Shown here piece after piece: positions 8,688-37,827 of a stretch of 64,000 nt of DNA; positions within the stretch are counted from its first letter, which is position 1, and every line of letters starts with the position of its first letter. Origin of the DNA: Rubeoparvulum massiliense (GTDB lineage Bacteria > Bacillota > Bacilli > Rubeoparvulales > Rubeoparvulaceae); assembly GCF_001049895.1 (NCBI RefSeq), contig NZ_CVPE01000004.1, positions 310,001-374,000 of the forward strand. The letters run 5' to 3'. The translations under genes were made by a program, and so were the position numbers. The notes below the pieces were generated by a model. The model did not search any database. It saw only the letters and a list, made by a program, of their open reading frames with translations, and was not told the DNA's origin.

Positions 8688-9089
8688 GTGTTAAGTACAG
8701 GTCTATTAATCATCCGTTTAGTCATTGGTCTTTCCTTCGTTGCCCATGGTGCACAAAAACTCTTTGGTTGGTTCGGTGGTTACGGACCAAAAGGAACAGG
8801 TCAATTCTTTGAATCCATCGGGATTAAGCCAGGCGTAGCCATGGCTGTATTGGCTGGTCTTGGTGAATTCCTTGGCGGTGCCTTCTTTGCCCTAGGATTG
8901 CTTACACCGATCGGTGGGATTCTAATCGCAGGAACGATGTTGGTAGCAATCCTTAAGGTCCATGGAGCCAATGGCTTCTGGGCATCCAACAATGGCTATG
9001 AACTCAATTTAGTTCTCCTTGCTGTTGCTGTTGGGGTTGCCCTATCAGGACCTGGTCAATATGCACTCGATGCCATTCTCTTCCCATAA
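8688..9089 (+). CDS. DoxX family membrane protein (MhqP-like)
   Basis: 133-residue, four-helix membrane protein of the DoxX family ([51 protein letters not shown]). DoxX proteins are implicated in thiol/quinone and redox stress; B. subtilis MhqP is a member and lies in the MhqR regulon. The GTG start follows GAGGAG by 9 nt. It is followed after 14 bp by the pirin gene, and both should be controlled by the operator at 8635. Confidence 0.9.
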
Positions 9090-9103
9090 GGAGATGATCA
9101 AAA

Positions 9104-9808
9104 TTGATTGAAATCTACCCGGCAGATTCTCGGTTCACATCACAGCATGATTGGTTACACAGTAATTTTAGTTTCTCTTTCGCTGAATATTATGATCCGA
9201 ATAACTTAAAATTCGGTCCATTACGCGTACTTAATGATGATATCATTCAGCCTGCTCGCGGATTCGGTATGCATCCCCATCAGGAGATGGAGATCGTCAG
9301 TATCGTCCTTAGCGGCTATCTACAGCATGAGGATAGTCATGGACATCGTGCTACTACCACTTTCGGAGAGATCCAAAGGATGTCTGCAGGAACTGGAATC
9401 TTCCACTCTGAGATGAATCCATCTAACGATGAGGAGGTTAATCTACTCCAGCTCTGGTTCCTTCCAGATACACGTGGACTCACACCTTCTTATGAAAAAA
9501 CGAGCTACGAGATCGCAAAGATGAAGAATAATCTACTACCTGTTGTGACGAAGAAGCCAACATCGGCTGAGGTAGCCCATATTCATCAGGATTTAACCAT
9601 TTACCTTTCTCAACTGGAAGCAGGTCAAGAGCTCACCTTCAAGCAGGCAGAAGGGCGGCGTATCTTTCTCTTTGTCCTCGATGGAGAGCTGGTTATCCAT
9701 GGTGGTCTTCCATTAAAGCAGCGTGATAGCGCAAGAATAACAGAGATAGCCCAATTATCCCTCATCGCCAGTACGGAGGCTCGCTTCATGCTCATCGATC
9801 TTCCATAG
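9104..9808 (+). CDS. Pirin family protein (bicupin; possible quercetinase)
   Basis: 234-residue pirin-type bicupin, with the N-terminal cupin keeping the metal ligands His-His-His-Glu in GFGMHPHQEMEIVSIVLSG and TGIFHSEMN. Bacterial pirins bind Fe and some oxidise flavonols such as quercetin. The TTG start at 9104 is supported by AAGGAG 10 nt upstream and no better start nearby. It is the second gene of the DoxX operon, so a role in handling aromatic or quinone electrophiles is a fair inference; the enzymatic substrate is unknown. Confidence 0.9.
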   Translation: MIEIYPADSRFTSQHDWLHSNFSFSFAEYYDPNNLKFGPLRVLNDDIIQPARGFGMHPHQEMEIVSIVLSGYLQHEDSHGHRATTTFGEIQRMSAGTGIFHSEMNPSNDEEVNLLQLWFLPDTRGLTPSYEKTSYEIAKMKNNLLPVVTKKPTSAEVAHIHQDLTIYLSQLEAGQELTFKQAEGRRIFLFVLDGELVIHGGLPLKQRDSARITEIAQLSLIASTEARFMLIDLP

Positions 9809-9865
9809 ACATTGCATCCCCTTGTCCCACATATATTCATAGAGATGGGATATTAAGGAGGATGA

Positions 9866-10396
9866 ATGATGATGGGACCTGCCACATTAGCTTTCCTTGC
9901 CTTTAGTTTAACAGTGATACTAATCTTTCTTGGATTCCGTTACCGGACAACCAGCTTTCATCACGAGCTCGCTAGTATACCTTCTGTTGTAGGAATGCAG
10001 GGGGGTTTTAGTACAGGATTAGTGATTGCATTGCTCTTACAGCTCCCCTTTCTCACTGCCCTATGGCTGGCTATGATCCTCTCCATCGGTTTGACGATCA
10101 TTGCTGCCCTTCCTTTTGGATCAAGAGCACTGCTTGAGGGGAGCATGTCCGGGATGATGGGAGGCATGATGGGTGCAATGACAGGTGCCATGATTCCTCA
10201 ACATCAATACCAGCTCACACTCCATCTTTTTCTCATCCTCCACCTTGGAATTCATTTCATCATCCTGCATATTCTTGCTCGGGTGATTCATGAGAATATG
10301 AAGGCGTCCTCCGTACTCATCCGACTTTTTCGACATCCTAGCTATGTCATGACTACTATGCTGGCCACCATGATGCTATATACGATCTTTTTTTAA
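9866..10396 (+). CDS. Small Met/Gly-rich integral membrane protein
   Basis: I do not recognise a named family with certainty. The 176 residues hold about five hydrophobic helices and a central run rich in Met and Gly (SMSGMMGGMMGAMTGAM), followed by a His-rich helix (LHLFLILHLGIHFIILHIL). Met/His-rich membrane segments can bind copper or another soft metal, but that is speculation. AAGGAGG (9855-9861) precedes three consecutive ATG codons at 9866, 9869 and 9872, so the exact start is open. It lies 57 bp after the pirin gene and may be read through from that operon. Confidence 0.75.
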   Translation: MMMGPATLAFLAFSLTVILIFLGFRYRTTSFHHELASIPSVVGMQGGFSTGLVIALLLQLPFLTALWLAMILSIGLTIIAALPFGSRALLEGSMSGMMGGMMGAMTGAMIPQHQYQLTLHLFLILHLGIHFIILHILARVIHENMKASSVLIRLFRHPSYVMTTMLATMMLYTIFF

Positions 10397-10403
10397 GAAT
10401 GCA

Positions 10404-10459
10404 GAAGCCATCCTACTGCCCTCGTCTTTGTCGTAAAGCTAGAGAAGTAGGATGGCTTC
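10404..10459. terminator. Long inverted repeat, possible bidirectional terminator
   Basis: A perfect 14-bp stem, GAAGCCATCCTACT and its complement, encloses 28 nt between convergent genes. There is no clear T-run. The 15-mer AGAAGCCATCCTACT occurs again near 25813 before the CRISPR array. Confidence 0.5.
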
Positions 10460-10503
10460 ATCACATTTATACAATTGATATTCGGTACTCTGCTAATTCT
10501 ATG

Positions 10504-10746
10504 TTAACGCTTGTTTAATAGGGACTTTTTCCGCTGATACTCCTCTTCATCAATCTCGCCACGAGCAAAACGCTCATTGAGAACTTCAAGAGAATTTTCA
10601 GTTCCCGTCCGTGCTCGCAATGCTTGATTATTAAAAAGCTTATACACAATAAAGATGAGCAGTGCAGCAATAAGCAGCATGAAAATCATGCCATACCAGC
10701 CTCCTCCAAAAAGACCCAATCCATAATCACAGCCATATCTCATCAT
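10504..10746 (-). CDS. SHOCT domain-containing small membrane protein
   Basis: 80-residue protein: one membrane helix (MIFMLLIAALLIFIVYKLF) followed by a C-terminal SHOCT motif (LEVLNERFARGEIDEEEYQR), a short oligomerisation-type motif common at C-termini of bacterial small proteins. The ATG at 10746 is chosen because GGGAGG stands 7 nt before it. Function unknown; it is a single gene on the minus strand. Confidence 0.85.
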   Translation of the reverse strand: MMRYGCDYGLGLFGGGWYGMIFMLLIAALLIFIVYKLFNNQALRARTGTENSLEVLNERFARGEIDEEEYQRKKSLLNKR

Positions 10747-10841
10747 TGGAAGTCCTCCCTTCATCTCTGTTCATCTTCCATGATAAGGGATGGTTATGTA
10801 GAACTTATGAGGATCATCTGAATACAATCTTGAGAAAATCT

Positions 10842-11150
10842 TTAGAACTTTTCATTACGGAACTGCTCCGCTAACCGTCTTAACCAAAGGTCTGGTTTTA
10901 CCTCTTCCTCCGCATCAGCCGATCTGATATCCACAATTCGAATCTCCACTGGATTCTGGGGATTATTATCAATAAAAATCAGTTGACCCGCATCCTTGAG
11001 ATCCACTTGATATCCCATATCCAGCAGAAAATTTTGGAGATCCACGATTGTTGGTAGCTTATCATCATGGGTAAACAGAACTCCCTTAAGATTCCGCTCC
11101 TCCCCTTTGGTTTTTAAATAATCCAGTCGAAAGAGAAAGTTCCATTCCAT
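10842..11150 (-). CDS. Hypothetical protein, 102 residues
   Basis: Not recognised. The protein is soluble, acidic and has no membrane segment or cysteine motif; it begins MEWNFLFRLDYLKTKGEERN. GGAGGGG stands close before the ATG, the codon pattern resembles neighbouring genes, and no overlapping frame competes, so it is probably a real gene. It stands alone on the minus strand, divergent from the hemY pair. Confidence 0.65.
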   Translation of the reverse strand: MEWNFLFRLDYLKTKGEERNLKGVLFTHDDKLPTIVDLQNFLLDMGYQVDLKDAGQLIFIDNNPQNPVEIRIVDIRSADAEEEVKPDLWLRRLAEQFRNEKF

Positions 11151-11361
11151 TGTACACCCCTCCTTCCATTAAGAATGTAAGAATATCTTTTAGGTTCTCA
11201 CACGCATCACGCTTTTAATCTAATGATCAAGAAGATTGGTTACCCATGGAGTTCGATACCCCACTTGAAGTCAGATTGCCTTAATTCTTTTCTTGTGATA
11301 ATATTCACAATATGACTGGCAAATGGCTGATAATTAGGTCATGAGGTAAGGGGGAGCAACG

Positions 11362-12822
11362 ATGAAACATGTAGCCGTGATCGGTGGTGGAATAACCGGC
11401 TTGACAGCTACCTATATCCTAGAGCAAGTGAAGAAAGAGCATCCCAATGTACTAGCCTACCAGCTATTTGAAAAAAGCCCGCGCTTAGGCGGAATGCTAA
11501 TGACAGAGCATGATGATGACTTCACCATTGAAGGTGGCACCGATAGCTATGTCACCTTCAAACCTGAGGTGAACTGGTTAATCAAGCACTTAGGTTTAGA
11601 AGCACGTCGATTAAGCCCTGATATGAACCATGGTGGTTCTTATGTTCTCTATGATAACCAGGTTTACCGCTTACCAGATGGCGTCGCCATGCTACTCCCC
11701 TTTAAATTTACTGACTTTGCTCGCACTCCCCTCCTTTCTTGGAGTGGAAAACTACGAGCTTTAGGGGATCTCTTCATTCCAGCGAAAGCAAAGGGTGGTG
11801 ATGAGTCCTTGGCTAGCTTTATCAACCGCCGTCTTGGCAATGAAATGCTGGAGAAGGTGGTGGGTCCACTGGTAGGTGGCATTCATTCCATTGATCCTGA
11901 GGTAATGAGCCTACAGGCAACCTTTCCACGTTTTCTCCAAATGGAGCAAGAGCATCGTAGTCTAATTCTAGCTATGCTTCAGATGAAGCGCGCTGCAAAA
12001 AAACGCAATAACTCGCAAAGTGGTAGCAAAGGCAATGCAACAGGTCGGCGTAGTCCAGTTCTTAGCTTCATCAATGGAATGGGTGAACTAAGCAATGCCA
12101 TTGAGGAGAAACTTTCTCCTTCTAGTATTCACGTGAATACAGGTGTTACCTCCATTCGCCAGCAAGCTGCAGGACACTTTACCTTACAGCTTGAGAATGG
12201 AGAGTTGAGGGAGTTTGACGCTGTGATTATGGCAGTGGGTGCTAATCACTTTGCTTCCATGGTGGAAGAATGGGATCAGCAGCTCAGCCAATTACTACAG
12301 ACCATCCCTTTTACTTCATCCGCCTCTGTGTCTTTAGGATATCGAACGCAGGATCTTCCCAATCTCCCATATGGCTTAGGCATTACCATCCCAGCCAGTG
12401 AGAAACGACATACGACGGCCATTAATTTCAGCTCCTTAAAGTGGGATCATCGTGTACCCAGTGAGAAATATACCTTAATTCGAGCATTAGCAGGAGGTTA
12501 TAGTAGTCCTGAGTTAGCCTTCCAAGATGATGCAACCATCCTACAAATCATCCAGGCAGAATTACAAGAGATGCTGGATATCCAGGCTGCTCCAGTGATC
12601 CATCGGATCTATCGTTGGTTCCATAGTCGTCCCCAGTATACCCTCGGTCATGTGGAACGTGTAAAGCAGATCGAAAATCAAGTCATGCAGTATCCTGGTC
12701 TTTATTTGGCAGGTAGCTCCTATTATGGAGCAGGTGTCAGTGACTGTGTTGCTTCTGGTATACATGTTACAGAGAAGCTGTTAAATCAGCTTGGCATTTC
12801 AACAGAACCGATCATGAGGTAA
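11362..12822 (+). CDS. hemY: Coproporphyrinogen III / protoporphyrinogen IX oxidase, first copy
   Basis: FAD-dependent oxidase that makes coproporphyrin III (or protoporphyrin IX) in heme biosynthesis, HemY/CgoX family. The N-terminal dinucleotide fold is VAVIGGGITGLTATYIL; GGMLMTEHDDDFTIEGGTDS and the C-terminal YLAGSSYYGAGVSDCVASG are family blocks that bind FAD. 486 residues is slightly longer than the usual ~470, the extra residues being a basic linker near 210-235. GGGGGAGC precedes the ATG. A close paralog follows 143 bp downstream, an unusual tandem pair. No other heme genes are visible in the window. Confidence 0.9.
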   Translation: MKHVAVIGGGITGLTATYILEQVKKEHPNVLAYQLFEKSPRLGGMLMTEHDDDFTIEGGTDSYVTFKPEVNWLIKHLGLEARRLSPDMNHGGSYVLYDNQVYRLPDGVAMLLPFKFTDFARTPLLSWSGKLRALGDLFIPAKAKGGDESLASFINRRLGNEMLEKVVGPLVGGIHSIDPEVMSLQATFPRFLQMEQEHRSLILAMLQMKRAAKKRNNSQSGSKGNATGRRSPVLSFINGMGELSNAIEEKLSPSSIHVNTGVTSIRQQAAGHFTLQLENGELREFDAVIMAVGANHFASMVEEWDQQLSQLLQTIPFTSSASVSLGYRTQDLPNLPYGLGITIPASEKRHTTAINFSSLKWDHRVPSEKYTLIRALAGGYSSPELAFQDDATILQIIQAELQEMLDIQAAPVIHRIYRWFHSRPQYTLGHVERVKQIENQVMQYPGLYLAGSSYYGAGVSDCVASGIHVTEKLLNQLGISTEPIMR

Positions 12823-12917
12823 TAATACATTGTCGCACCCATTCATTTTTTTGCTGAATTGGGTGCTTTGTTGATGTTTAATTGCTCATTCCCTGGAAGG
12901 ATTGATATACTAAAGCC

Positions 12918-12948
12918 AAGGATTGGAACAACAAAGGATTGGAACAAC
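12918..12948. repeat. Two-copy 16-bp direct repeat before second hemY copy
   Basis: The unit AAGGATTGGAACAAC appears at 12918-12932 and 12934-12948, a short tandem duplication in the leader of the second copy. No regulatory role is evident. Confidence 0.7.
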
Positions 12949-12965
12949 GATGGGAGAGATAAAAG

Positions 12966-14408
12966 GTGAAACACGTAGCCATTATTGGCGGAGGCATTAC
13001 AGGATTAACCGTTGCATACCTACTTGAACAGCAGAAGCAGGAGCATCCTGATGAACTGGACTATCAGCTGATTGAAAAGGAGGAGCGCTTGGGCGGAAAG
13101 GTGATTACCGAGAATGTGGATGGCTTCATCATCGAAGGAGGGCCCGATAGCTTCATCAGCCGTAAGCCTGAGGTGATGAAAATCAGTGAACAGCTTGGTA
13201 TTAGTGCAAATGTGATGGGAACCAATACCACCCATCGTGGCTCCTATGTGCTTTCGGATAATCAAATTCACCAACTACCTGATGGTGTGGCATTGTTGAT
13301 GCCTTTTAAAATCATGGATTTTGCTAGAAACCCGATCATCTCATGGCGAGGAAAGTTCCGCGCCCTAGGAGATCTCTTTATCCCTGCAAGGCCTAATCAA
13401 CAGGATGAAAGTCTCGCCAGCTTTATCAATCGTCGTCTTGGTAATGAAATGCTAGAAAAATTGATTGGTCCCCTCGTTGGCGGTATCCACTCCAATAACC
13501 CAAATAGTATGAGTTTACAAGCTACCTTCCCCCGCTTCCTAGAGATGGAAAGAGAGCATCGCAGTATCATCCTTGCCATTCTCCACATGAAACGGGCGAT
13601 GAAGAAACGTATGAAGCAAGTGAACCCAGCTTCAACAAATAGAAAACCACCCTTTCTCACCTTCCAGCATGGAATGACAGAACTGACCTCTGCATTGGAA
13701 AAGGCCTTATCCCCTGACAGCATCCATACAGGGACTGCTGTAGCAAGGATTGAAAAAGGTGAACAGACACCCTATCGGATATTCCTCCAAAATGGTGAGG
13801 AAATCAATGCCGATGCTGTGGTCGTGACAGCGGGTGCCAATATCGCTACCAAACTACTGAATGGGATCGATGAAGAACTGGCTCAACTGCTTGGAAAAAT
13901 CCCGTTTACCTCCTCAGCAGCCATCTCTTTAGGCTATCGTAAAGCTGATTTACCCCAACTCCCCCTTGGGTATGGTATTACCATTCCAGTGCGGGAGCAA
14001 CGCAATATCTCAGCCATCACCTTCAGTTCATTGAAATGGGATCATCGCGTTCCCAATGATGATTATATGCTTTTACGTATTTTCATCGGAGGCTATGCCA
14101 ATCCTGAGCTGGTACAACGAGATAACGAGCATATCCTCGACATCATCAAGATGGAGTTGAACGATATTCTTGGAATCACTGCAGATCCCGTTGTACAACG
14201 GATCTATCGCTGGGTTCAAGGGCGTCCTCAGTATGAATTGGGGCATCTAGACTGCGTCCATCAGATAGAAGCACGATTACAGGACCATCCTGGTCTCTAT
14301 GTAGCAGGGAGTTCCTTTTATGGAGCTGGCTTAAGTGATTGTATCGCTTCTGCTGTACGTGGAACTAATACCATCTTGAAGGAGTTAGGCATCGAATCTA
14401 ATAATTAA
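12966..14408 (+). CDS. hemY: Coproporphyrinogen III / protoporphyrinogen IX oxidase, second copy
   Basis: 480-residue paralog of the preceding gene, colinear over its whole length (VAIIGGGITGLTVAYLLEQQ; GGKVITENVDGFIIEGGPDS; VAGSSFYGAGLSDCIASAV). This copy keeps the canonical GGPDSF block and GGK near the FAD site, whereas the first copy has GGTDSY and GGM, so this one is nearer the family consensus and could be the main enzyme. It starts with GTG after GGGAGAG. A 16-bp direct repeat (AAGGATTGGAACAAC units at 12918 and 12934) lies just upstream. Confidence 0.9.
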   Translation: MKHVAIIGGGITGLTVAYLLEQQKQEHPDELDYQLIEKEERLGGKVITENVDGFIIEGGPDSFISRKPEVMKISEQLGISANVMGTNTTHRGSYVLSDNQIHQLPDGVALLMPFKIMDFARNPIISWRGKFRALGDLFIPARPNQQDESLASFINRRLGNEMLEKLIGPLVGGIHSNNPNSMSLQATFPRFLEMEREHRSIILAILHMKRAMKKRMKQVNPASTNRKPPFLTFQHGMTELTSALEKALSPDSIHTGTAVARIEKGEQTPYRIFLQNGEEINADAVVVTAGANIATKLLNGIDEELAQLLGKIPFTSSAAISLGYRKADLPQLPLGYGITIPVREQRNISAITFSSLKWDHRVPNDDYMLLRIFIGGYANPELVQRDNEHILDIIKMELNDILGITADPVVQRIYRWVQGRPQYELGHLDCVHQIEARLQDHPGLYVAGSSFYGAGLSDCIASAVRGTNTILKELGIESNN

Positions 14409-14495: not shown

Positions 14496-15083
14496 ATGAA
14501 GTATGTTTGCGTATTTGCTGGATCTAACCCAGGCACAAATCCAAAATATGAAGCCATCGCCATTCAGTTAGGCGAAGAACTGATGAAGCGTAATATGGGT
14601 CTCGTATATGGTGGTTCTAGATTGGGCTTAATGGGGCGGATCGCCAACACAATGCTGGAAGAGAACGGCCAGGTAATCGGTGTAATGCCCAAGGGGCTCT
14701 TCCGTGAAGAGGTAATCCATCGTGGACTCACACAGCTCTATGAGGTTGCAGATATGCATGCCAGAAAAGCAAAGATGGGTGAACTCTCTGATGCATTCAT
14801 CGCCTTACCTGGAGGCTATGGAACACTAGAAGAAGTATTTGAGGCAGTAAGTTGGGGCCAGTTAGGGATTCACCATAAACCTGTGGGCCTGCTTAATATC
14901 GACTGCTACTACCAGCCTCTCATCGATATGGTTAATAATGCGGTGAAGGGTGGCTTCATCCCACAAAGACAAGCTTCCATGCTTATCGTTGAAAAGGATC
15001 CTGTCCTACTCCTCGAACGAATGAAAAGCTACCAGGCTCCTACCAATCTTCATAAGTGGAGTGAGCTACCTGAAGCGAAGTGA
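14496..15083 (+). CDS. LOG family protein (cytokinin-riboside-phosphate phosphoribohydrolase type)
   Basis: 195-residue Rossmann-fold enzyme of the LOG family (TIGR00730 type). The motif PGGYGTLEEVFEA (PGGxGTxxE) and GLVYGGSRLGLMG form the nucleotide and active site; family members hydrolyse nucleoside 5'-monophosphates to free base and ribose-5-phosphate. Many were formerly annotated as lysine decarboxylases, which is incorrect. A good ribosome site (TGGAGG) precedes the ATG. It stands alone and is followed by the orphan tnpB-type 3' end. Confidence 0.9.
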   Translation: MKYVCVFAGSNPGTNPKYEAIAIQLGEELMKRNMGLVYGGSRLGLMGRIANTMLEENGQVIGVMPKGLFREEVIHRGLTQLYEVADMHARKAKMGELSDAFIALPGGYGTLEEVFEAVSWGQLGIHHKPVGLLNIDCYYQPLIDMVNNAVKGGFIPQRQASMLIVEKDPVLLLERMKSYQAPTNLHKWSELPEAK

Positions 15084-15287: not shown

Positions 15288-15773
15288 TCAATCTAATATC
15301 CCCAGGGTAGCAAGTGTTGTCTTCATCTCTTCCAGCATCATCGGAAATTGATCTTGTAACAGATCGCTTAAGCCCCAATGAAAGCGGATTTCATATGGCT
15401 CAATACCTAGGAGATAACCGGTGATCTTCTGCTGCTCTACCTGCTCCATCACCTGCAATAAATGAAACAGGTGAAGATCATGGGCAGAATGGTGAAGTGA
15501 TAAGGAAGAGAGCTGATGGAAGGGTAGAAGTGTAATCTCCCCTGGTTTCTTCCCTAACTGGGCAGCGTCTACAATAATAAAGAGAGCGACTTGGAGCACT
15601 TGTTCCACACAATAATCCAAGTCGCTCTCTCCGATGACAAGCTTGGTCACCTGATCACCCCGTCGGATCTCCTCACTATACTGTTCCTGCAAGGCCTCCA
15701 CCATGTAGATCCCAATTCCATCATCCATCATCAGACGATTGCCAATACCGAGAACGAGACATCTCTTCATCAT
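15288..15773 (-). CDS. hyaD: NiFe hydrogenase maturation endopeptidase (HyaD/HybD family)
   Basis: 161-residue protease that removes the C-terminal peptide of the large subunit after nickel insertion. Conserved features are the N-terminal GIGNRLMMDDGIG (Ni-ligand acid), VDAAQ and HSAHD. Its ATG overlaps the TGA of the large-subunit gene (ATGA), so it is coupled to its substrate. The large subunit ends with a cleavable extension after DPCMSCATH, which fits. The gene is the last of the four-gene hydrogenase operon. Confidence 0.88.
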   Translation of the reverse strand: MMKRCLVLGIGNRLMMDDGIGIYMVEALQEQYSEEIRRGDQVTKLVIGESDLDYCVEQVLQVALFIIVDAAQLGKKPGEITLLPFHQLSSLSLHHSAHDLHLFHLLQVMEQVEQQKITGYLLGIEPYEIRFHWGLSDLLQDQFPMMLEEMKTTLATLGILD

Positions 15774-17179
15774 GTACCCTGCACCTTTTGGTAGAGAGGT
15801 GGTTTATGCGGTTGATATACATGGGTGGCACAGGACATACAGGGATCGAAAGAACGAATGATCCGCCCTAACTCAATGGGATGATCAGGATCTTGAATGG
15901 GAGTACCGATGAGTGCCTGCTCTGCAGTACCTCGATTTTCTACTGTTCGCGCTGAAAAGTCCCATGCAGAAGGGGTAATAATCTGATAAAAGGAGAGCTT
16001 CTGATCCTCAATTTTCAACCAATGCCCTAGTGAACCTCGCGTTGTCTCTACTAAGCCTGCTCCCTCTCCTTGCTGGGGAAGCTTCCATACCTTCTGCCCC
16101 GTCACATCTAGAGCGAGGTGCTCTAGTAAAATCGTGAGTACCTCCGTGATCTTCTTTGCCTCCAAGACACGGGCAATACTGCGATCCATGGCAGAGATAC
16201 CATGGCGATATTCACCAGCTAACCAGAGACGCGCTAAGGGTCCTACTTCAAAGGGCAGTCCCTCATAACGAGGTGCCTTCACCCAGCTATAGGCAGCGGA
16301 TTGATTGCGGTCTGGCTCGGGTATGGTTTCAAAGGGAGTATACGATTCCTGTCCAGCATACCAGGAGTAAGCGATGGACTCGCTGATCCCCAGAGGATCA
16401 AAGGGTGCGAACTCACCATCCTTATACACCCCTGCGTCGACGTACAATGTTCCTAGTTCCTCGTAGTTGGCAAATGCCCCCATGCAGAGAAAATTGCCTA
16501 GTCCCCTCCCGAAGGTAAAGTACTCATCGTAGTATTCTGCGATGGTATAGGCATCAGGAATCATCACCTCTTCAATGAACGCTTGGATCTCTGCTAATAT
16601 GGATTTCATTTGAATCATTTTATCCACGGTAGCGGGTCTCGTGCCCCCACCTACAAAAATGCCATGGTTATGGGGAGCCTTCCCTCCTAAAACAGCTAGC
16701 ATGGTATGCGCATTGCGGCTAATGGGAAGGGAATCTAGATAATGTTGAACTAAACGATCGTTTAATCTTTTTGGCAGACGATAATCCTGCTGCTCATTCT
16801 GATAAAGGGGATACGCTTCTGGCATCTTCACAAAGTCCGGAAGAGAATACTGATAGAAATGGCGGATATGATTCTGCAAGAATTCACAGCCATGGATAAT
16901 ATCACGAAGATACCGCCCCTGTTCTGTGGGACGGATCTGTAGTGCAGCTTCGAGGGCAGTGGATGAAGCTACAGAATGGGCAGAAGAGCAGATCCCACAA
17001 ATTCGTTGCGTCAAATAGATGGCATCAAAAGGATTCCGCCCCACCATCATCTGTTCAAATCCCCGAAACAACATGCCTTTGGTTCTTGCTTCCACCACGC
17101 GATGATTCTCGATCCACACCTCCAGCTCCATAAAGCCACTTAGCCTCGTTACTGGGTTAATCACTACCCGCTTCACCAT
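15770..17179 (-). CDS. NiFe hydrogenase large subunit
   Basis: 469-residue catalytic subunit holding the NiFe(CN)2CO centre. The L1 motif RICGICSSAH (residues ~60-69) and the L2 motif FDPCMSCATH near the C-terminus supply the four cysteine ligands. About 16 residues follow the L2 histidine and would be removed by the downstream protease. GGAGGGAG before the ATG lies inside the end of the small-subunit gene, giving a 23-bp overlap. Partner genes are the small subunit and the cytochrome b5-domain protein. Hyp accessory genes are not in the window. The exact hydrogenase group cannot be fixed by eye. Confidence 0.95.
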   Translation of the reverse strand: MVKRVVINPVTRLSGFMELEVWIENHRVVEARTKGMLFRGFEQMMVGRNPFDAIYLTQRICGICSSAHSVASSTALEAALQIRPTEQGRYLRDIIHGCEFLQNHIRHFYQYSLPDFVKMPEAYPLYQNEQQDYRLPKRLNDRLVQHYLDSLPISRNAHTMLAVLGGKAPHNHGIFVGGGTRPATVDKMIQMKSILAEIQAFIEEVMIPDAYTIAEYYDEYFTFGRGLGNFLCMGAFANYEELGTLYVDAGVYKDGEFAPFDPLGISESIAYSWYAGQESYTPFETIPEPDRNQSAAYSWVKAPRYEGLPFEVGPLARLWLAGEYRHGISAMDRSIARVLEAKKITEVLTILLEHLALDVTGQKVWKLPQQGEGAGLVETTRGSLGHWLKIEDQKLSFYQIITPSAWDFSARTVENRGTAEQALIGTPIQDPDHPIELGRIIRSFDPCMSCATHVYQPHKPPLYQKVQGT

Positions 17180-18083
17180 GTACTCCCTCCTTCACCATCT
17201 CAAAACTCACAAAGGGTGCCATCTGGTCAGGAAAGCCAAATTGGGTACAACCAATGCAGGTGCTAGCGCCGATGGGCCAATTGACATAGCCATTCCACTT
17301 CCGCGTGGGACAGTCAATTCTGGTTACCGGACCACGACAGCCTAATTGATAGAGACAATAGGGCTCATCTAAGGTCTTCGCAAAGATGCCTCGATTAAAG
17401 TAATCTAAACGGGGACAACGATCATGAATGAGATTCCCATAGAAAAGTAAAGGGCGTCCTCGCTCATCTAAGGCTGGCTCTCCATCCATAAGGAGATGAG
17501 CCAATGTTCCTAAAAACCAATCCGGATGGCAGGGACAGCTGGGCAATTGAATCACCTTACGTTGAAGAACACTTCCTAAACCTACACACTGAGCCAAATT
17601 AGGCTTGGCAGCAGACGGTCCTCCGTGGGTTGCGCAAGCCCCCACTGCTATCACATGACGCGCCTTCTCTCCTAGGATTCTTGCAGCATCGAGCCCCGTT
17701 ATCTCCCTGCCTTGCCAACGTCCAATCACATGGTAGCGCCCCTCATCACGCAGTGAAACAGCTCCCTCAACTGCTAGGATATACTCCTCTTCCTGAACTG
17801 CCCTAAGCTTCTCAATGGCTGCCTCCCCTTCTGCTACCATCAGACTGTTACTATAAATCAAATTGACCATGGAGTTGATCAGATATTCGAAGTTAGGATT
17901 GGTTCCATTGAGGAGCGAGATGATATTGCCCGAGCAGCCATTTAACTCGAGCCAAACTAGATTAGGCTTGTTGATGGTGCCAGCTTGTAGCCTTTGCTGA
18001 GCAGCCTCCACCAGTCGACGGGCCACCGCTTCATTACTTAGATCTTCCGGAGGCAAGATCATCGATTCGTTTTCCTTATTCAT
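17157..18083 (-). CDS. NiFe hydrogenase small subunit, no Tat signal
   Basis: 308-residue Fe-S subunit that relays electrons from the NiFe site. Visible cluster ligands: LELNGCSGN near residue 50, VGACATHGG, LPSCPCHP for the proximal cluster; HDRC, YCLYQLGC for the distal; DCPTRKWN and STCIGC for the medial. The proximal CxxC is CSGN, so the second cysteine is Asn. The N-terminus (MNKENESMILPPED) lacks RRxFxK, so the enzyme is likely cytoplasmic. The ATG at 18083 follows GGGGAGG by 8 nt and overlaps the previous TGA; a frame extending to 18461 is an artefact that reads antiparallel codons of the upstream gene. Confidence 0.93.
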   Translation of the reverse strand: MNKENESMILPPEDLSNEAVARRLVEAAQQRLQAGTINKPNLVWLELNGCSGNIISLLNGTNPNFEYLINSMVNLIYSNSLMVAEGEAAIEKLRAVQEEEYILAVEGAVSLRDEGRYHVIGRWQGREITGLDAARILGEKARHVIAVGACATHGGPSAAKPNLAQCVGLGSVLQRKVIQLPSCPCHPDWFLGTLAHLLMDGEPALDERGRPLLFYGNLIHDRCPRLDYFNRGIFAKTLDEPYCLYQLGCRGPVTRIDCPTRKWNGYVNWPIGASTCIGCTQFGFPDQMAPFVSFEMVKEGVHGEAGSD

Positions 18084-18583
18084 GTGACCAACCTCCCCAC
18101 CTGTGGTAGCGTACGAAGGATCCACTGTTGGCCCGCATGACAGAAAGCAAACTCTGCAGTTAAATCCTTCCCTGCTGTTAAGCCAAAATGAGTGGCCAGG
18201 GACCAAGCTGCATGATTCGTTACATCGTAGACGATGCCATTGACTGCCACATAGGCAGGGCGACCATTCTGTCCATTGAACTGGGCGAGCTGTTCCCGTG
18301 TAATCGCTGGTAGGGCTTGTTGATCCGTAGGTGGAGATGGCGAAGGGCTTATGGGTGGTTGCATGGTCGGACGTTGCGCTTGAGGTAGTTGGGATGAGAG
18401 TAGTTGGGGTGGAACTTGTAGAAGCTGGAATAAAAACTGGAGCTGCACCATACGATTCCACAGCTGATTAAGGGCGAGCGCTCTACTCATGGGATCAGTG
18501 ATTGTATATAGCAGACGAATTAAATAATTCACCTCAGAAAAGATCGCCATGATTTGGCTGTTTATTAAGATCTGGTCAGGCAC
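18080..18583 (-). CDS. Cytochrome b5-like heme-binding protein of the hydrogenase operon
   Basis: About 167 residues. The N-terminal ~65 residues are helical, then comes a Pro/Ser/Gln-rich linker (QPPISPSPSPPTDQQ) and a C-terminal cytochrome b5-like domain (AITREQLAQFNGQNGRPAYV; VNGIVYDVTNHAAW; THFGLTAGKDLT; CHAGQQ), with His residues placed to ligate heme. It is the first gene of the hydrogenase operon and may carry electrons between the small subunit and a quinone or other acceptor; this is inference. The GTG at 18583 follows AGGAGG by 7 nt and is preferred to the GTG at 18604. Confidence 0.8.
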   Translation of the reverse strand: MPDQILINSQIMAIFSEVNYLIRLLYTITDPMSRALALNQLWNRMVQLQFLFQLLQVPPQLLSSQLPQAQRPTMQPPISPSPSPPTDQQALPAITREQLAQFNGQNGRPAYVAVNGIVYDVTNHAAWSLATHFGLTAGKDLTAEFAFCHAGQQWILRTLPQVGRLVT

Positions 18584-18670: not shown

Positions 18671-18694
18671 TTGACATGAATATTTTCATATCAA
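18671..18694. promoter_or_regulatory. 24-bp imperfect palindrome upstream of hydrogenase operon
   Basis: TTGACATGAATATTTTCATATCAA pairs at 10 of 12 positions per half (quoted site is read as two 12-nt halves TTGACATGAATA and TTTTCATATCAA). It lies about 90 bp upstream of the first hydrogenase-operon gene. TTGA..TCAA ends are reminiscent of Crp/Fnr-type sites, and a Crp/Fnr gene is nearby at 19435, but linkage is unproven. Confidence 0.4.
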
Positions 18695-18728: not shown

Positions 18729-18774
18729 ATCAAAGAAAGCTGTCATATCTTACGATATGACAGCTTTCTTTGAT
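18729..18774. terminator. Bidirectional terminator hairpin after osmC gene
   Basis: Two perfect 21-bp arms (beginning ATCAAAGAAAGC) enclose a 4-nt loop TTAC. It separates the OsmC gene from the downstream hydrogenase operon on the minus strand. Confidence 0.7.
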
Positions 18775-19434: not shown

Positions 19435-20094
19435 TTAGTCTGCTTGATGGTTAAGTCCTATCCAAAGACGTTGATTATCAATGCGGAGTTGTCCACTTTG
19501 GATCAATTTATTTATCAGAAAGGTGACGGTCTCTCTTGTGGAAGCAATCATGCCTGCCATATCCTTATGAGTTAAGTAGGAAGGAAGAGGTGCCCATTCC
19601 CCATTAGCCTGCGTGCGATCAGCGAGCTTCTGTAGAAGGTTGATAAGACGTTCTTCTACCTTTTCATAGGCTACCTGTTCTAGGATTACCCTGGTTTCAT
19701 TGAGTTGATTCGCAAAATATTGCAGTAATGCCAAAGTCAATTGAGGCGTTTTGAGTACCTGTTCAATGATCTCAGCCTTTGCAATTTTCACCACTACAGT
19801 CTCTGTTAATGCAGTAGCAAACAGATTACCAAATGTCTGGGCAAAGAGACCAGCAATATCGATGAAATCACCTGGGCGGGCAATCCCTAGCACACATTCC
19901 TTCCCATCTGTGTGGAGGTGGTAAATACGTGCGTTCCCTTCCACGATGAGGTAGATCTCTTTACTGAGCTTATCAGGATATTCAATCTGCTCTCCCTTAC
20001 GAAATTCATACCTTGCTCGTGTCATCCATTCCTGTACACAATGCTCATCGAACAAGGTAAGAATATGGGAGGGTATGATCTGATTTATCTCCAT
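19435..20094 (-). CDS. Crp/Fnr family transcriptional regulator
   Basis: 219-residue regulator: N-terminal cyclic-nucleotide-type beta barrel (residues ~15-125, with GNARIYHLHTDGKECVLGIARPGDFIDIAGLF) and a C-terminal winged helix (YLTHKDMAGMIASTRETVTFLINKL). The recognition helix has RETV, as in CRP, so a TGTGA-like site is expected. There is no cluster of N-terminal cysteines, so it is unlikely to be an oxygen-sensing FNR. Its target may include the nearby hydrogenase operon or OsmC gene; this is guessed from position only. Confidence 0.9.
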   Translation of the reverse strand: MEINQIIPSHILTLFDEHCVQEWMTRARYEFRKGEQIEYPDKLSKEIYLIVEGNARIYHLHTDGKECVLGIARPGDFIDIAGLFAQTFGNLFATALTETVVVKIAKAEIIEQVLKTPQLTLALLQYFANQLNETRVILEQVAYEKVEERLINLLQKLADRTQANGEWAPLPSYLTHKDMAGMIASTRETVTFLINKLIQSGQLRIDNQRLWIGLNHQAD

Positions 20095-25845: not shown

Positions 25846-25961
25846 TGAAGTTATTCTGTTATAGATAGTTTTACTTAGTCTCGCATTTCAAAAAAAGTAA
25901 AGTTACTTCTAAATCGTAGTGTTAAACAACAAGGGATATCCCCTTTGGAATCAATAGCACC

Positions 25962-28900
25962 ATTTCGATCCACGCACCTATGAAGGGTGCGACAAGGGGA
26001 TGTCCTCTGTGTAGATGACTTACTAGCAATTTCAATCCACGCACCCATGAAGGGTGCGACATCTACTAGAGATCGCATGTATTGGTTCCTTCTGATTTCA
26101 ATCCACGCACCCATGAAGGGTGCGACCTCAACTACCGCATACATAATTACCCCATCTGAGAATTTCAATCCACGCACCCATGAAGGGTGCGACGCTGGCC
26201 ACTGTGGATGGAACAAAATACATTGATAATTTCAATCCACGCACCCATGAAGGGTGCGACCTTTAATACATCTCTTGATACATTACTCGGATTGATTTCA
26301 ATCCACGCACCCATGAAGGGTGCGACGTAACCATACCAATTCCAGACACCACCGCACCGGGAATTTCAATCCACGCACCCATGAAGGGTGCGACGGTTTC
26401 TATGGCTAGGTTAGCCGCAACGCTTGTTTTATTTCAATCCACGCACCCATGAAGGGTGCGACATAGATCGCTTTACACCTTTTCTGTATCGAATGCATTT
26501 CAATCCACGCACCCATGAAGGGTGCGACTTTGGAATCTTGTCGAGGTCATATTCGGCGAAAGATTTCAATCCACGCACCCATGAAGGGTGCGACGATTTT
26601 ATTGCAGGAGTATTCACGGGTAATTGGATTTCAATCCACGCACCCATGAAGGGTGCGACGTGGAGCAGGGAGTCGATAGTGACTCGGTCTACGTAATTTC
26701 AATCCACGCACCCATGAAGGGTGCGACGTCGACAAAATCACGTTTGAGTCAACCATTGGCGATTTCAATCCACGCACCCATGAAGGGTGCGACGTCTACA
26801 ATGCCATTGTTGTTTGCAAATCTTTGATAATTTCAATCCACGCACCCATGAAGGGTGCGACGTCAATACCCATCGCAATGTCGTACTCGGCAAATGGATT
26901 TCAATCCACGCACCCATGAAGGGTGCGACTTCACCAGTAAGCATCCATTGGCGCTCAGATGATTATTTCAATCCACGCACCCATGAAGGGTGCGACTTAT
27001 CCTCTAGGCGAGGAGTACTGCGATCATCAAATTTCAATCCACGCACCCATGAAGGGTGCGACGTGGGATAATTACTAGGAGGTTCAATCATGGGAATTTC
27101 AATCCACGCACCCATGAAGGGTGCGACGGCTTTCCGATTAGCATTTGCCCCATACTTTACTATTTCAATCCACGCACCCATGAAGGGTGCGACACAAGCG
27201 CGACAATTAGGGTTATCTCCATATGCGATTTCAATCCACGCACCCATGAAGGGTGCGACGTGCAGTATTTGAAATGAAGAAAGCGTATAAAGATTTCAAT
27301 CCACGCACCCATGAAGGGTGCGACTTTTTCACTATCTATGATAGCAAAAGGAGAATACATTTCAATCCACGCACCTATGAAGGGTGCGACTTGAAAAACT
27401 AGAAGAAACACAAAGACTAGCAGTAATTTCAATCCACGCACCCATGAAGGGTGCGACACGGAATTCCACCTTTGAAAACTTCATCCCTGGAATTTCAATC
27501 CACGCACCCATGAAGGGTGCGACGGGCAGTACGATACACACCATCACCACAGGGGCAGATTTCAATCCACGCACCCATGAAGGGTGCGACCAGCCGTTGC
27601 CACAAGATACACCGCCAATGATCGATTTCAATCCACGCACCCATGAAGGGTGCGACCACGGGTCACCTTGCCAAGATTTTAGTATTGCAGGATTTCAATC
27701 CACGCACCCATGAAGGGTGCGACTTTGCTGTACTTGCTACTGTACGCGCCAAAAAATGCATTTCAATCCACGCACCCATGAAGGGTGCGACAGTAAAACA
27801 GATAATTAGCACACTGGGTGCAAAATTTCAATCCACGCACCCATGAAGGGTGCGACATAATTGAATATAGGTTGAATCATGGGGTAGCTATTTCAATCCA
27901 CGCACCCATGAAGGGTGCGACACCCAGGTGACTTGTCGATTATTATATTTGACCTATTTCAATCCACGCACCCATGAAGGGTGCGACATCATCAAATCTT
28001 GGTACACGTCCAACTTCCGAATTTCAATCCACGCACCCATGAAGGGTGCGACTAAAACGTGATGAAGGAATATTGCAAGTGATGGTATTTCAATCCACGC
28101 ACCCATGAAGGGTGCGACCATATTCTGCGCGATACATCATGTCATTTTCCTTGATTTCAATCCACGCACCCATGAAGGGTGCGACCTACATATTACATTT
28201 TGTAAAGGGGATAACATAATTTCAATCCACGCACCCATGAAGGGTGCGACTCAACTGATTGCATAGGTATAATATTGCTTAGTTATTTCAATCCACGCAC
28301 CCATGAAGGGTGCGACTAAAAGTTATCGATTCCATAAACCTGCCTTTTTTATTTCAATCCACGCACCCATGAAGGGTGCGACTAAAAGTTATCGATTCCA
28401 TAAACCTGCCTTTTTTATTTCAATCCACGCACCCATGAAGGGTGCGACAAAGAATTTTACTTATATAGTTTTGACTGGTTTAAATTTCAATCCACGCACC
28501 CATGAAGGGTGCGACACCGTATTATTAATTGGATTAGGTATATCTCTCTGATTTCAATCCACGCACCCATGAAGGGTGCGACTTATACAAAAGTACCTTT
28601 AGGAGATTGTTTAGCAATTTCAATCCACGCACCCATGAAGGGTGCGACGTAAAAGTTATCGATTCCATAAACCTGCCTTTTTTATTTCAATCCACGCACC
28701 CATGAAGGGTGCGACAATCCAGCGGAACCTATCGTTCAAGTATGTGGTAATTTCAATCCACGCACCCATGAAGGGTGCGACAAAAGGGGAATGAGGTGCG
28801 CATTAGAGCACGCGGAATTTCAATCCACGCACCCATGAAGGGTGCGACAAAAGGGGAATGAGGTGCGCATTAGAGCACGCGGAATTTCAATCCACGCACC

Positions 28901-31900
28901 CATGAAGGGTGCGACAAGTTTATCATAATAAGTGTCTTTGATTTTTGTTATTTCAATCCACGCACCCATGAAGGGTGCGACGAGGCAGTAAATGCAGTTT
29001 GGTTACGTGCATATGATTTCAATCCACGCACCCATGAAGGGTGCGACTAGAAATCTTTATGGTATTCATTAGATATTGATAATTTCAATCCACGCACCCA
29101 TGAAGGGTGCGACGGCAATATTGATAAACCTTCTTCGTTTCTTCTAGATTTCAATCCACGCACCCATGAAGGGTGCGACAACATGAGTATGCGAGTTAAT
29201 AAGGAACTATTGATTTCAATCCACGCACCCATGAAGGGTGCGACGGCGATGGAACTGTATAAAGTCACTTCTTTTTCTATTTCAATCCACGCACCCATGA
29301 AGGGTGCGACGTACAACTGGAGGGGTAATCTAAATGAGTTTGATATTTCAATCCACGCACCCATGAAGGGTGCGACGGCGATGGAACTGTATAAAGTCAC
29401 TTCTTTTTCTATTTCAATCCACGCACCCATGAAGGGTGCGACTGGAAGAGGGTAATCAAACTAATCTAGCTGATGTTATTTCAATCCACGCACCCATGAA
29501 GGGTGCGACGATTATTCCATTAAAGTCACGCTATCGCAGATTTAATTTCAATCCACGCACCCATGAAGGGTGCGACGCTTGCAGAAGTTTAGTTGGCTCA
29601 TCAAGAGTGGAATTTCAATCCACGCACCCATGAAGGGTGCGACCGCATAATTTTGTTTAACTCCTTGTTTAATTCACATTTCAATCCACGCACCCATGAA
29701 GGGTGCGACTTGATCGCTATCTTTCAGCAATTCGTTTGTAATAGGATTTCAATCCACGCACCCATGAAGGGTGCGACTTGCATTGGTTAGCTGTATCACT
29801 TCGTATTTCTTATTTCAATCCACGCACCCATGAAGGGTGCGACAAGTTTTAGGACAACCCCAAGGAGGTAAGCCAATATTTCAATCCACGCACCCATGAA
29901 GGGTGCGACTGTTCCCAGGTAAAACCTAACTGCTCGCCTAGATATTTCAATCCACGCACCCATGAAGGGTGCGACGGATGCAATAAACGCTCCTGAGTTT
30001 TCTTTGAGAATTTCAATCCACGCACCCATGAAGGGTGCGACGTGTTCCTTTTGTTCAAGGTAAGCTTGGGGAAGTTATTTCAATCCACGCACCCATGAAG
30101 GGTGCGACAGGTTATGCCAAGTAACCTATCCATTTTTGGATGATTTCAATCCACGCACCCATGAAGGGTGCGACGTTAAGTCAGTTGCTATGACGCAAGC
30201 TGATGAAGATTTCAATCCACGCACCCATGAAGGGTGCGACGAGAGAAGGAGATCGGTTTGTGTCCATTCCGGAGATTTCAATCCACGCACCCATGAAGGG
30301 TGCGACATCGTCGATTAGGTTTTAAATTTACTCGATTAATTATTTCAATCCACGCACCCATGAAGGGTGCGACACCAGCGACAATAAGCGATACAAAAAA
30401 AATGCTAAATTTCAATCCACGCACCCATGAAGGGTGCGACTATCACAACTGTAGTGCTCTTCATCAAAAAGACTATTTCAATCCACGCACCCATGAAGGG
30501 TGCGACGGTGATAAATCATGAAAACCATGCACATTGCCTGTATTTCAATCCACGCACCCATGAAGGGTGCGACTGTATGACGGTGCTACAAGATACCGAT
30601 GGCATTATTTCAATCCACGCACCCATGAAGGGTGCGACACTACCTTAGGAGTTTTACTGTTGTCGCATTGAGTATTTCAATCCACGCACCCATGAAGGGT
30701 GCGACGTCTTTTCGATAATATCAGGTCCACCTGTGACTGATTTCAATCCACGCACCCATGAAGGGTGCGACGCAAAATGGTATTACAGGTATGACATAAT
30801 CGACCCATTTCAATCCACGCACCCATGAAGGGTGCGACCGGTCCATATTTTTACTCACCTTCTTCTAGTATATTTCAATCCACGCACCCATGAAGGGTGC
30901 GACAATCCAGCTGGCGGAATTAAAAGCATTAGTGTTTTTATTTCAATCCACGCACCCATGAAGGGTGCGACACATCCACCACATGGGGCAAATGGAGCTC
31001 TACTTATTTCAATCCACGCACCCATGAAGGGTGCGACGATAGGAGGTAAATCATATGTCACCTTACGAAAATTTCAATCCACGCACCCATGAAGGGTGCG
31101 ACGAGGTGCTTCGGCAATATACAACATTCCATCATATTTCAATCCACGCACCCATGAAGGGTGCGACTGGATAAACTTGATAACTCATCATGGGAAGGAG
31201 GATTTCAATCCACGCACCCATGAAGGGTGCGACTGGTTATCGAATGGAGATTCGTATTTCATATACTATTTCAATCCACGCACCCATGAAGGGTGCGACA
31301 TTTCTTCCAATCCTACTCATACTGGTTTTAGATATTTCAATCCACGCACCCATGAAGGGTGCGACAATATTGACGTTAAAGAACTAACAGATAAGTTTGA
31401 TTTCAATCCACGCACCCATGAAGGGTGCGACGTACCACTGTCTCCCCTATGACGATCTAAAAAAATTTCAATCCACGCACCCATGAAGGGTGCGACGAGA
31501 GCAGATTGCACCAAAAAAAAAGGAAACAAAAATTTCAATCCACGCACCCATGAAGGGTGCGACAAAAGTACAAAGAAACAAGTGCAGTGTTTGAGATATT
31601 TCAATCCACGCACCCATGAAGGGTGCGACGCAATAAGTGATAGCATTATAGATTTTGCATACAATTTCAATCCACGCACCCATGAAGGGTGCGACATAGA
31701 ATACATTAACAAAAAATAAAATATAGAGAGATTTCAATCCACGCACCCATGAAGGGTGCGACTATACTCGGCAAAATCTGCCAGACTCCAATCCGGCATT
31801 TCAATCCACGCACCCATGAAGGGTGCGACCCCAACATAACGTAAGCAGTGTATATGGCAGCATATTTCAATCCACGCACCCATGAAGGGTGCGACGACTT

Positions 31901-32161
31901 CAAGCGTGAGATGCAATTCGCCATGCCAAAATTTCAATCCACGCACCCATGAAGGGTGCGACGTGCTTGAGGATATAGAGCAACGTGTCTGTATAATTTC
32001 AATCCACGCACCCATGAAGGGTGCGACAATACAGTGGTAGATGTTCAGGACTTAGGAGAGTTATTTCAATCCACGCACCCATGAAGGGTGCGACGTCTCA
32101 AGGAGAGTCTATGGAGATTCCACCCACTGATTTCAATCCACGCACCCATGAAGGGTGCGAC
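25962..32161 (-). CRISPR. Type I-C CRISPR array, 94 repeats and 93 spacers
   Basis: I counted 94 copies of a 32-nt repeat whose transcribed (minus) strand begins GTCGCACCCTTCATGGGTGC and ends GTGGATTGAAAT, a classic I-C repeat with a CGCACCC/GGGTGCG stem. Spacers are about 33-36 nt. Orientation is set by the cas genes and leader on the right, so new spacers enter near 32161 and the oldest lie near 25962. The distal terminal repeat (25962-25993) carries two changes, as expected for a trailer end; the repeat at 27359-27390 shares one of them. Three spacers are repeated: 28317/28383/28649, 28782/28849 and 29245/29377. Open frames inside the array are spurious. Confidence 0.99.
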
Positions 32162-32328
32162 AGCGATTTTAGGCAAAAATCATCTGAAAGCTTTATTTTT
32201 TTAACCCAAAAACATCATTTCCTTTATAAGAATAAAGATCCAATAACATTATTTTACATTTTTGGTGATATCATGTGCTAATTTTGGTGCGAATGTGTCA
32301 TGCTTTTTATGCGCACTATACATTCGCA
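32162..32328 (-). promoter_or_regulatory. CRISPR leader
   Basis: A 167-bp A/T-rich segment between cas2 and the first leader-proximal repeat, where the array promoter and integration signals are expected. It holds an inverted repeat GTGCGAATGT (32287-32296) / ACATTCGCAC (32320-32329) that overlaps the cas2 stop and could end the cas transcript. Confidence 0.8.
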
Positions 32329-32619
32329 CTAAAGAATTAAGGGACCTTCTAAATCGATCGATTCTTTCACACCAAGATGTTCTACTTTAGTCTTATAATT
32401 ATTACCCAACTGATAAAACCTAAGGCTATCCTGCTCTTCATCAATAATATTTGCCAGTTCAATTTTTAGTGTCGCAAATTGAGTTGCATCTACTATACAT
32501 TCAAATACAGAGTTTTGAACACGTTGTCCGTAGTTTTGACATACTTTTGCTACCCTACGTAATCTTTTCTGCCCTGCACCACTTACAGTACTTACATCAT
32601 ACGTAATTAATACCAGCAC
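32329..32619 (-). CDS. cas2: CRISPR-associated endonuclease Cas2
   Basis: 96-residue ferredoxin-like protein, dimer in the Cas1-Cas2 integrase that adds spacers. The N-terminal MLVLITYDVST holds the conserved Asp after the first strand, and GQRVQNSVFECIVD is the family block. It follows cas1 by 8 bp and is the last gene of the cas operon, ending against the leader. Confidence 0.97.
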   Translation of the reverse strand: MLVLITYDVSTVSGAGQKRLRRVAKVCQNYGQRVQNSVFECIVDATQFATLKIELANIIDEEQDSLRFYQLGNNYKTKVEHLGVKESIDLEGPLIL

Positions 32620-32628
32620 ATGTTACAC

Positions 32629-33660
32629 CTACTTCCACATTAATGGTGGATACTCATCAAGATCATTACGTAAATAACGAGCTAGTAATAATGCTTGTGC
32701 ATGTGGTACTAATCCCCAAGAAACTTTTTCACCTAGATATGGATGTGTTATCTTTTCTTGCTTTTTGTTTTGCCACGCCGTTAAAAACTTCTTTCGGGCT
32801 TCATCTGTCATGATGACTGCTCCACTTTCTTTCTTTAAAAAATCTTCTCGATTAACCACTCTTTTATTAATTAATGATAAGACAAACCTATCTGCAAAAA
32901 CGCCTCGCAATTCCTCCATCACATCTAGAGCTAACGATACTCTTCCCGGTCTATCCCGATGCAAAAATCCAACATATGCATCAAGTCCGACGCCTTCTAA
33001 TGCAGATGTCATATCATTTGCTAGTAATGTGTATGCAAATGAGAGCATTGCATTTGCATTATCTAGTGGAGGTCTTCGTGAACGATTGTCAAAATAAAAA
33101 TCTTCTTTCTGTTGGAGTATCATTTGATTAAACAGTTTATTGTAGCTTAATGCCGCTTGACCTTCCCATCCTCTTAAACTTTCTAAGTCCTCACATTTTC
33201 TAACCTCATGAATAATCGATGATAAATGGTGGGAGACTTCTTTGAATTGAGTGACATCTACTCGTAATGGATAGTCTCTTGTCATTCTTTCAATCATCCA
33301 TTTATGATTGTAAATCTTTCCTATAATAAAGTTACGAGCAATTCTTGCTGACATCGTCTCATCTTCTGATATGAGATATTGTTTCTTTCTTAGGACAACA
33401 TTTCCCTTACTTTTCCCAATCACTCTCGCAAGGAATCTCCCATTCATTGTTAAAAATACTAATGAGATATTTCTATCAGCACAATACCCCATCAAGGCTG
33501 GACTTGCACCAGTGTATCCAAAACATACGATAGATTCTAAATTATGAAGAGGTAGTCTCCCCAATTTCTCTTGATCCTTAAGAAGAACAATATTATCTCC
33601 GTCTAAGGATAAATATACGTCTGGTTGTGTTATAAATAAGGTGTTCAATAATTTTTTCAT
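32629..33660 (-). CDS. cas1: CRISPR-associated endonuclease/integrase Cas1 (type I-C)
   Basis: 343-residue integrase of the adaptation complex. The beta-rich N-terminal domain (LNTLFITQPDVYLSLDGDNI) is followed by the helical catalytic domain with the conserved Glu in GWEGQAALSYNKLF, His in VGFLHRDRPGRVSLALD and Asp shortly after. Length and order (cas4-cas1-cas2) match type I-C. It overlaps cas4 by 4 bp (ATGA). Confidence 0.97.
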   Translation of the reverse strand: MKKLLNTLFITQPDVYLSLDGDNIVLLKDQEKLGRLPLHNLESIVCFGYTGASPALMGYCADRNISLVFLTMNGRFLARVIGKSKGNVVLRKKQYLISEDETMSARIARNFIIGKIYNHKWMIERMTRDYPLRVDVTQFKEVSHHLSSIIHEVRKCEDLESLRGWEGQAALSYNKLFNQMILQQKEDFYFDNRSRRPPLDNANAMLSFAYTLLANDMTSALEGVGLDAYVGFLHRDRPGRVSLALDVMEELRGVFADRFVLSLINKRVVNREDFLKKESGAVIMTDEARKKFLTAWQNKKQEKITHPYLGEKVSWGLVPHAQALLLARYLRNDLDEYPPLMWK

Positions 33661-34316
33661 TCATTGATCTTCCCTTCGATATAACTTTTTACAGAACGTT
33701 TATTCATTAATTGGGGTAGACAGATATGTTGCAGGGAGCAGTTCTTACAGAAAGAACCTGTCTTGACCTTAGGTGTATACTTACGCTTATAATAAGTATG
33801 CATTTCTGCAAACATCAATTTTACTTTATTTTTATTCTCTCTTGTGATAGGTACTGCAACTCGTCGTCGTATTTCATCATAAAACATGTAGCCCATTTCG
33901 ATATTGCATAATAACATTTCTTCTAGACACATCGCTTGTGCAGTCAATTGCAAAACATCCGCATCATGCGTCTTTGGTTTACCACGTTTATATTCGATTG
34001 GATAAGCAACATATGTTCCTTCAACACCATCGATTTCAATACCTTCTGAGTCTGTAATGAACTCAACTACATCACAAACCCCTGTTATCTTAAGCTCATT
34101 GGACTTTACAGGCATTGCTCGTACAATCAGTTTATTTCCACGTTTCTCCCTGATAAATGGCTCATCAGCTTTTCGATGAAGATATTGTCCTTCAATGGTT
34201 CTAACATTTTCTTCCCACTGCTGCTCAATGTGAATTAGAGCCCATTGTCGGCGACAAAATTGAAAATGCTGAATGCCAGATAACATGAGGTAATTATCTT
34301 CATCATTATCGGCCAT
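33657..34316 (-). CDS. cas4: CRISPR-associated exonuclease Cas4
   Basis: About 219 residues. RecB-like nuclease with Fe-S cluster cysteines: HFQFCRRQWALIHIE near the N-terminus and CKNCSLQHIC at the C-terminus; PIEYKRGKPK holds the nuclease Glu-Lys motif. In I-C systems Cas4 trims prespacers and selects the PAM. The start is uncertain: TTG codons at 34328 and 34319 or ATG at 34316 are possible, all inside the 3' end of cas7; the ATG gives the usual N-terminus (DEDNYLMLSGIQHF). Confidence 0.95.
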   Translation of the reverse strand: MADNDEDNYLMLSGIQHFQFCRRQWALIHIEQQWEENVRTIEGQYLHRKADEPFIREKRGNKLIVRAMPVKSNELKITGVCDVVEFITDSEGIEIDGVEGTYVAYPIEYKRGKPKTHDADVLQLTAQAMCLEEMLLCNIEMGYMFYDEIRRRVAVPITRENKNKVKLMFAEMHTYYKRKYTPKVKTGSFCKNCSLQHICLPQLMNKRSVKSYIEGKINE

Positions 34317-35169: not shown

Positions 35170-35183
35170 GTCCATCTCTCCCT

Positions 35184-37789: not shown

Positions 37790-37827
37790 ATTTTCACCCC
37801 TTTCTTTTTAATTTTTCTTACAATTTA

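Follow-up and report, generated by a model that had tools for sequence, protein, structure and literature searches.

The question raised by this locus is how a [NiFe] hydrogenase is arranged when its small subunit carries asparagine in place of one of the usual cysteines of the proximal iron–sulfur cluster, where in the cell such an enzyme would act and to what it would pass its electrons. The locus lies in a 64,000-nucleotide stretch of DNA from Rubeoparvulum massiliense, the window, from whose first letter the positions below are counted. We consider it probable that the product is a cytoplasmic, H2-uptake [NiFe] hydrogenase which belongs to a clade of its own, closest to group 1a of HydDB, and has a dedicated soluble cytochrome b5 as its redox partner.

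The operon and its surroundings

The operon is on the minus strand and consists of four overlapping genes, in the order cytochrome b5, small subunit, large subunit and protease. The product of the first (18080..18583) is a protein with a cytochrome b5 domain (PF00173, E 7e-9), which bears out an earlier note, made from the same DNA, that the operon opens with such a gene and has no membrane cytochrome b. It is followed by the genes for the small subunit (17157..18083; 308 aa; PF01058 and PF14720, with a TIGR00391 score of 196 bits, above the cut-off of 179.5), the large subunit (15770..17179; 469 aa; PF00374, E 7e-106) and a HycI/HyaD-type protease for maturation of the large subunit (15288..15773; PF01750, TIGR00072). 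Attention had been drawn to the range 17157-18583, which holds the small subunit and cytochrome b5 genes; those for the large subunit and protease occupy 17179-15288. The most likely start of the cytochrome b5 gene, as read from the sequence, is a GTG at 18583 with AGGAGG in front of it; the frame is open to 18604, from which the residues of this protein are numbered here.

In the large subunit, L1 (RICGIC) and L2 (DPCMSC) are intact and the chain continues beyond the L2 histidine as a C-terminal extension, so there is no sign of a dead enzyme. Together with three sets of iron–sulfur ligands in the small subunit, the matches to RxCGxC and DPCxxC are those expected of a [NiFe] hydrogenase.

Promoter and terminator scans gave matches no better than chance. 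By eye, an imperfect palindrome, TTGACATGAA-TATT-TTCATATCAA, can be seen at 18671-18694, some 90 bp ahead of the gene for cytochrome b5; the repeat finder did not report it. A perfect 21-nucleotide inverted repeat with a 4-nucleotide loop (18729-18774), possibly a terminator or attenuator, lies between an OsmC-like gene and the cytochrome b5 gene, and a gene for a Crp/Fnr-like regulator is found at 19435-20094. On the other side of the operon are two adjacent paralogous genes resembling protoporphyrinogen/coproporphyrinogen oxidases (11362-14408) and, between these and the hydrogenase genes, a LOG-like gene (14496-15083). A CRISPR array with putative type I-C genes (Cas3, Cas5, Cas8c, Cas7, Cas4 and Cas1) spans 25875-40418. 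The oxidase-like, LOG-like and Cas genes were named from a look at their sequences.

The proximal asparagine

The small subunit reads ELNGC50-S-G-N53-IIS, in which the motif C50-S51-G52-N53 is encoded by TGC TCG GGC AAT (17936-17925, minus strand) and asparagine stands for the usual second cysteine of CxxC. In alignments both with PDB chains and of 63 sequences, N53 coincides with the fourth proximal cysteine, while C50, C150 and C183 coincide with the other three. The codons and the position of the exchange are therefore as the earlier note had described them. The medial (C258, P270, C276 and C279) and distal (H220, C223, C243 and C249) positions are canonical. Modelled by itself with AlphaFold, the small subunit gave a poor structure (pLDDT 68, with residues 51-63 and 232-308 below 50); the matches of this model in the PDB confirm the fold only, ligand distances being beyond its quality.

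The earlier note took asparagine here to be unusual unless an alignment should prove it standard for the subgroup, and the alignment did so. A scan of the genomes of 84,980 species yielded 147 relatives, of which 80 were analysed, and asparagine occupies the proximal position in all 79 with a readable motif. These relatives are mainly Bacilli and Clostridia; there are also a single Anaerolineaceae MAG and a single record named Calditrichales, which may be misbinned, misnamed or transferred. It should be noted that the scan patterns included CSGN, such that the result might have been an artefact of the search. This is ruled out on two grounds. Four loci recovered without that pattern read CAGN, which means that the result is not circular, and an unbiased protein search of 200 related genomes, in which the motif was not required, gave 11 orthologs (63–69% identity), all with CSGN, bringing the asparagine tally in that search to 12/12. 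Asn53 is thus the fixed, ordinary state of the whole family and not the oddity of a single protein.

It had also been suggested that the extra cysteine of the neighbouring LPSCPC might replace the missing ligand. In its strongest form, this would make the Cys-to-Asn exchange a recent mutation, or the mark of a decaying site, with Cys185 as the new fourth ligand. Cys185 is indeed only two residues from the ligand Cys183, but among the 80 members position 185 is cysteine in 46, valine in 32 and serine in two, such that 34 members have no cysteine there and Cys185 is not needed as a ligand. The alignment therefore rules out a stand-in role for Cys185 in the family, and the constancy of asparagine, including in loci found without the CSGN pattern, leaves a recent mutation scarcely credible.

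Asparagine at this position also occurs outside the family: HucS has CSGN, the bacillar group 2a-like HupS proteins have CSGN or CNGN, and a Sulfurimonas enzyme has CAGN. A group 1h sequence reads CDGD, in agreement with the statement of the earlier note that actinobacterial-type hydrogenases have aspartate here. Asparagine or aspartate at the same proximal position has been described for groups 1f and 2a (PMC5364354). As a separate observation, two Tat-type group 1 small subunits from other Bacilli (L022 and L024) read CSGP at the proximal position, whereas L017 and L018, which are closely related to them, have CSGC.

Relationship to known hydrogenases

In a tree of 63 small subunits, the family forms a single clade with 100/100 support, mostly from Bacillota, which falls among the group 1 branches; the fork that joins it to its nearest neighbours is weak (73/74). 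Group 2a sequences form a clade of their own, which rules out assignment to group 2a on the strength of CSGN, even though the family shares with that group both asparagine at the fourth proximal position and the absence of a Tat signal. The mycobacterial enzyme Huc (Mycobacterium smegmatis, group 2a) has the same proximal CSGN in HucS, and cyanobacterial HupS, like the family, has no signal peptide (PMC6616624). In contrast to Huc and HupSL, the family keeps the distal-cluster histidine, and whereas Huc has the partner protein HucM (PMC10017518), the partner here is a haem protein. Another group, 1h (Hhy/Hof), resembles the family in having three cysteines and a non-cysteine residue at the proximal cluster, but that residue is aspartate and the group sits far away in the tree, at the end of a long branch.

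The best PDB matches to both subunits are group 1a [NiFeSe] hydrogenases, a kinship for which the joining fork in the tree is weak, as given above. For the small subunit, the closest matches in both sequence and fold are group 1a enzymes, including Hys of Desulfovibrio vulgaris Hildenborough, and such enzymes also match the large subunit best in sequence. The family nevertheless departs from group 1a in lacking the Tat signal of an exported, periplasmic enzyme, in having a cytochrome b5 partner and in its invariant N53, where the solved [NiFeSe] members have four proximal cysteines (CTGC). It differs from [NiFeSe] Hys in two further respects: the L2 codon is TGT, specifying cysteine instead of selenocysteine, and the medial cluster has P270 (and hence three cysteines) in place of the fourth cysteine found in [NiFeSe] enzymes.

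A search of the openly accessible literature for a named subgroup with cytochrome b5 gave PMC9431212 as the sole match. That paper reports a single Tat-less enzyme, assigned to HydDB group 1a, for each of the Clostridium acetogens, and a cytochrome b5 gene beside it in C. carboxidivorans, C. drakei and C. scatologenes. These enzymes resemble our clade by description; that of C. magnum (L109 in our set) falls within it.

Cell location, maturation and the second hydrogenase

The earlier note found no Tat signal in the small subunit, and this extends to the family: none of 79 members has a Tat motif, while four Tat controls, including the second hydrogenase of this genome, all score. Nor was a C-terminal membrane helix found in the small subunit. 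The enzyme probably stays inside the cell.

The recurring neighbours of the operon are hypA–F (hypF at 46 loci, hypE at 46 and hypD at 45), which occur nearby at roughly half of the loci, for the most part immediately upstream. In the R. massiliense genome, the hyp genes adjoin the second hydrogenase, on another contig, and probably supply maturation for both enzymes. The second hydrogenase (L004, positions 8727-12851 of its stretch; G000 contig C5) is a classical Hup enzyme with a Tat signal (SRRDFM) and a CTGC proximal motif; a membrane cytochrome b, a protease and the hyp genes lie beside it.

The combination of a Tat-less hydrogenase and a soluble partner recalls HoxBC, and the same genome has a separate Hup enzyme; these features allow the idea of a hydrogen sensor, like the regulatory hydrogenases of groups 2b and 2c, signalling via the cytochrome b5 protein. 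Regulatory hydrogenases are not known to have the C-terminal extension of the large subunit or the protease. The family keeps both, no gene for a kinase was seen repeatedly at a constant position, and HoxB groups with group 2a in the tree (on long branches). We therefore regard a sensor as very improbable.

The probable cytochrome b5 partner

A cytochrome b5 gene was found by profile in 74 of the 80 loci and, by gene calling, is directly upstream (position −1) of the small subunit in 68. Three of the six loci without it end just upstream of the small subunit, giving 74 of 77 testable loci. The gene is absent from L067 and L109 (C. magnum), whose contigs have ample upstream DNA, and from L108, on a shorter contig; thus, the cytochrome b5 may be dispensable. 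No other recurring electron-transfer gene was found in the gene clusters of the analysed loci, and the b5 domain encoded by the operon is the sole cytochrome b5 domain in the genome.

The protein has a helical hairpin, a proline-rich linker and a C-terminal cytochrome b5 domain; in the predicted model, the helices cover residues 10-34 and 38-63, the linker is of low confidence and the domain has the b5 fold. The region of the haem ligands (18137..18190, minus strand) contains His139 (18190-18188) and the pair Cys155-His156 (His156 at 18139-18137). All three residues are invariant in 33 aligned orthologs, and the same was seen in an alignment of 69 sequences. The two axial histidines expected of a cytochrome b5, H139 and H156, are thus conserved, and haem binding is predicted from them. 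The closest solved structures to the domain are archaeal b5 proteins from Hadesarchaea (PDB 6nzx) and Methanococcoides burtonii (PDB 6vz6); they match the b5 domain only, the hairpin and linker being without counterpart in those chains. No hydrophobic stretch of membrane length is present in any of 69 of the b5 proteins.

A proposed electron route

Gene content, conservation, the positions of the ligands, and the lack of a Tat motif and of a membrane anchor are the basis of the route that we propose. The large subunit would cleave hydrogen at its [NiFe] site, and electrons would pass to a proximal cluster held by three cysteines and Asn53, from there to a medial cluster held by three cysteines, which is expected to be [3Fe-4S] because proline is in the fourth place, then to the distal His/3-Cys cluster and finally to the haem group carried by the b5 protein. 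The helical hairpin of the latter likely docks the protein, and the linker would let the haem domain move. The cytoplasmic location, the direction of uptake and the direct transfer to cytochrome b5 are what we infer from these features. There are two precedents for the nature of an asparagine-containing proximal cluster: all three clusters of Huc are [3Fe-4S] (PMC10017518), and the proximal cluster of Nostoc HupS is described as an asparagine-ligated [4Fe-4S] cluster (PMC6616624).

A different destination for the electrons can be envisaged, in which the enzyme is a membrane-associated respiratory uptake hydrogenase at the cytoplasmic face, and menaquinone or a membrane complex receives its electrons either from the b5 protein or, on the model of Huc, directly from the small subunit. 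Huc and cyanobacterial Hup, with the same proximal asparagine, either supply quinone or are believed to do so (PMC10017518, PMC6616624), and the host genome has a haem-copper oxidase, which makes a respiratory route possible, although many members are Clostridia. The gene clusters have no recurring membrane subunit, however, and the b5 proteins have no membrane helix; on balance, we judge such an arrangement unlikely, if well short of negligible.

To return to the soluble cytochrome b5 as acceptor, some members of the family are strict anaerobes and only parts of haem synthesis have been found in Clostridium acetogens (PMC9431212), such that the haem acceptor is uncertain in those organisms. 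A more far-reaching proposal, which we put forward tentatively and with more doubt than conviction, is that the clade makes up a separate physiological class, cytosolic, in which H2 reduces a soluble cytochrome b5 via proximal and medial clusters that are both [3Fe-4S], and that this holds for the aerobic Bacilli as well as the anaerobic Clostridia. If this were true, the two clusters would be of high potential and the enzyme would have a strong bias to uptake.

Implications for the family

The family appears to be a widespread and apparently uncharacterised group of [NiFe] hydrogenases, which probably reside in the cytosol and are paired with a soluble, dedicated cytochrome b5; the one paper found touches on it. 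According to the description cited in PMC7306483, enzymes of HydDB group 1a are periplasmic and respiratory, yet the clade has no Tat signal, a fixed asparagine and a dedicated b5 protein. Annotation pipelines would misplace both its location and its electron route. If the link to cytochrome b5 holds, the family would provide a route for H2 into a cytosolic haem carrier. It would also offer a natural test of the effect of asparagine on cluster type, in which Huc and Nostoc HupS reportedly differ.
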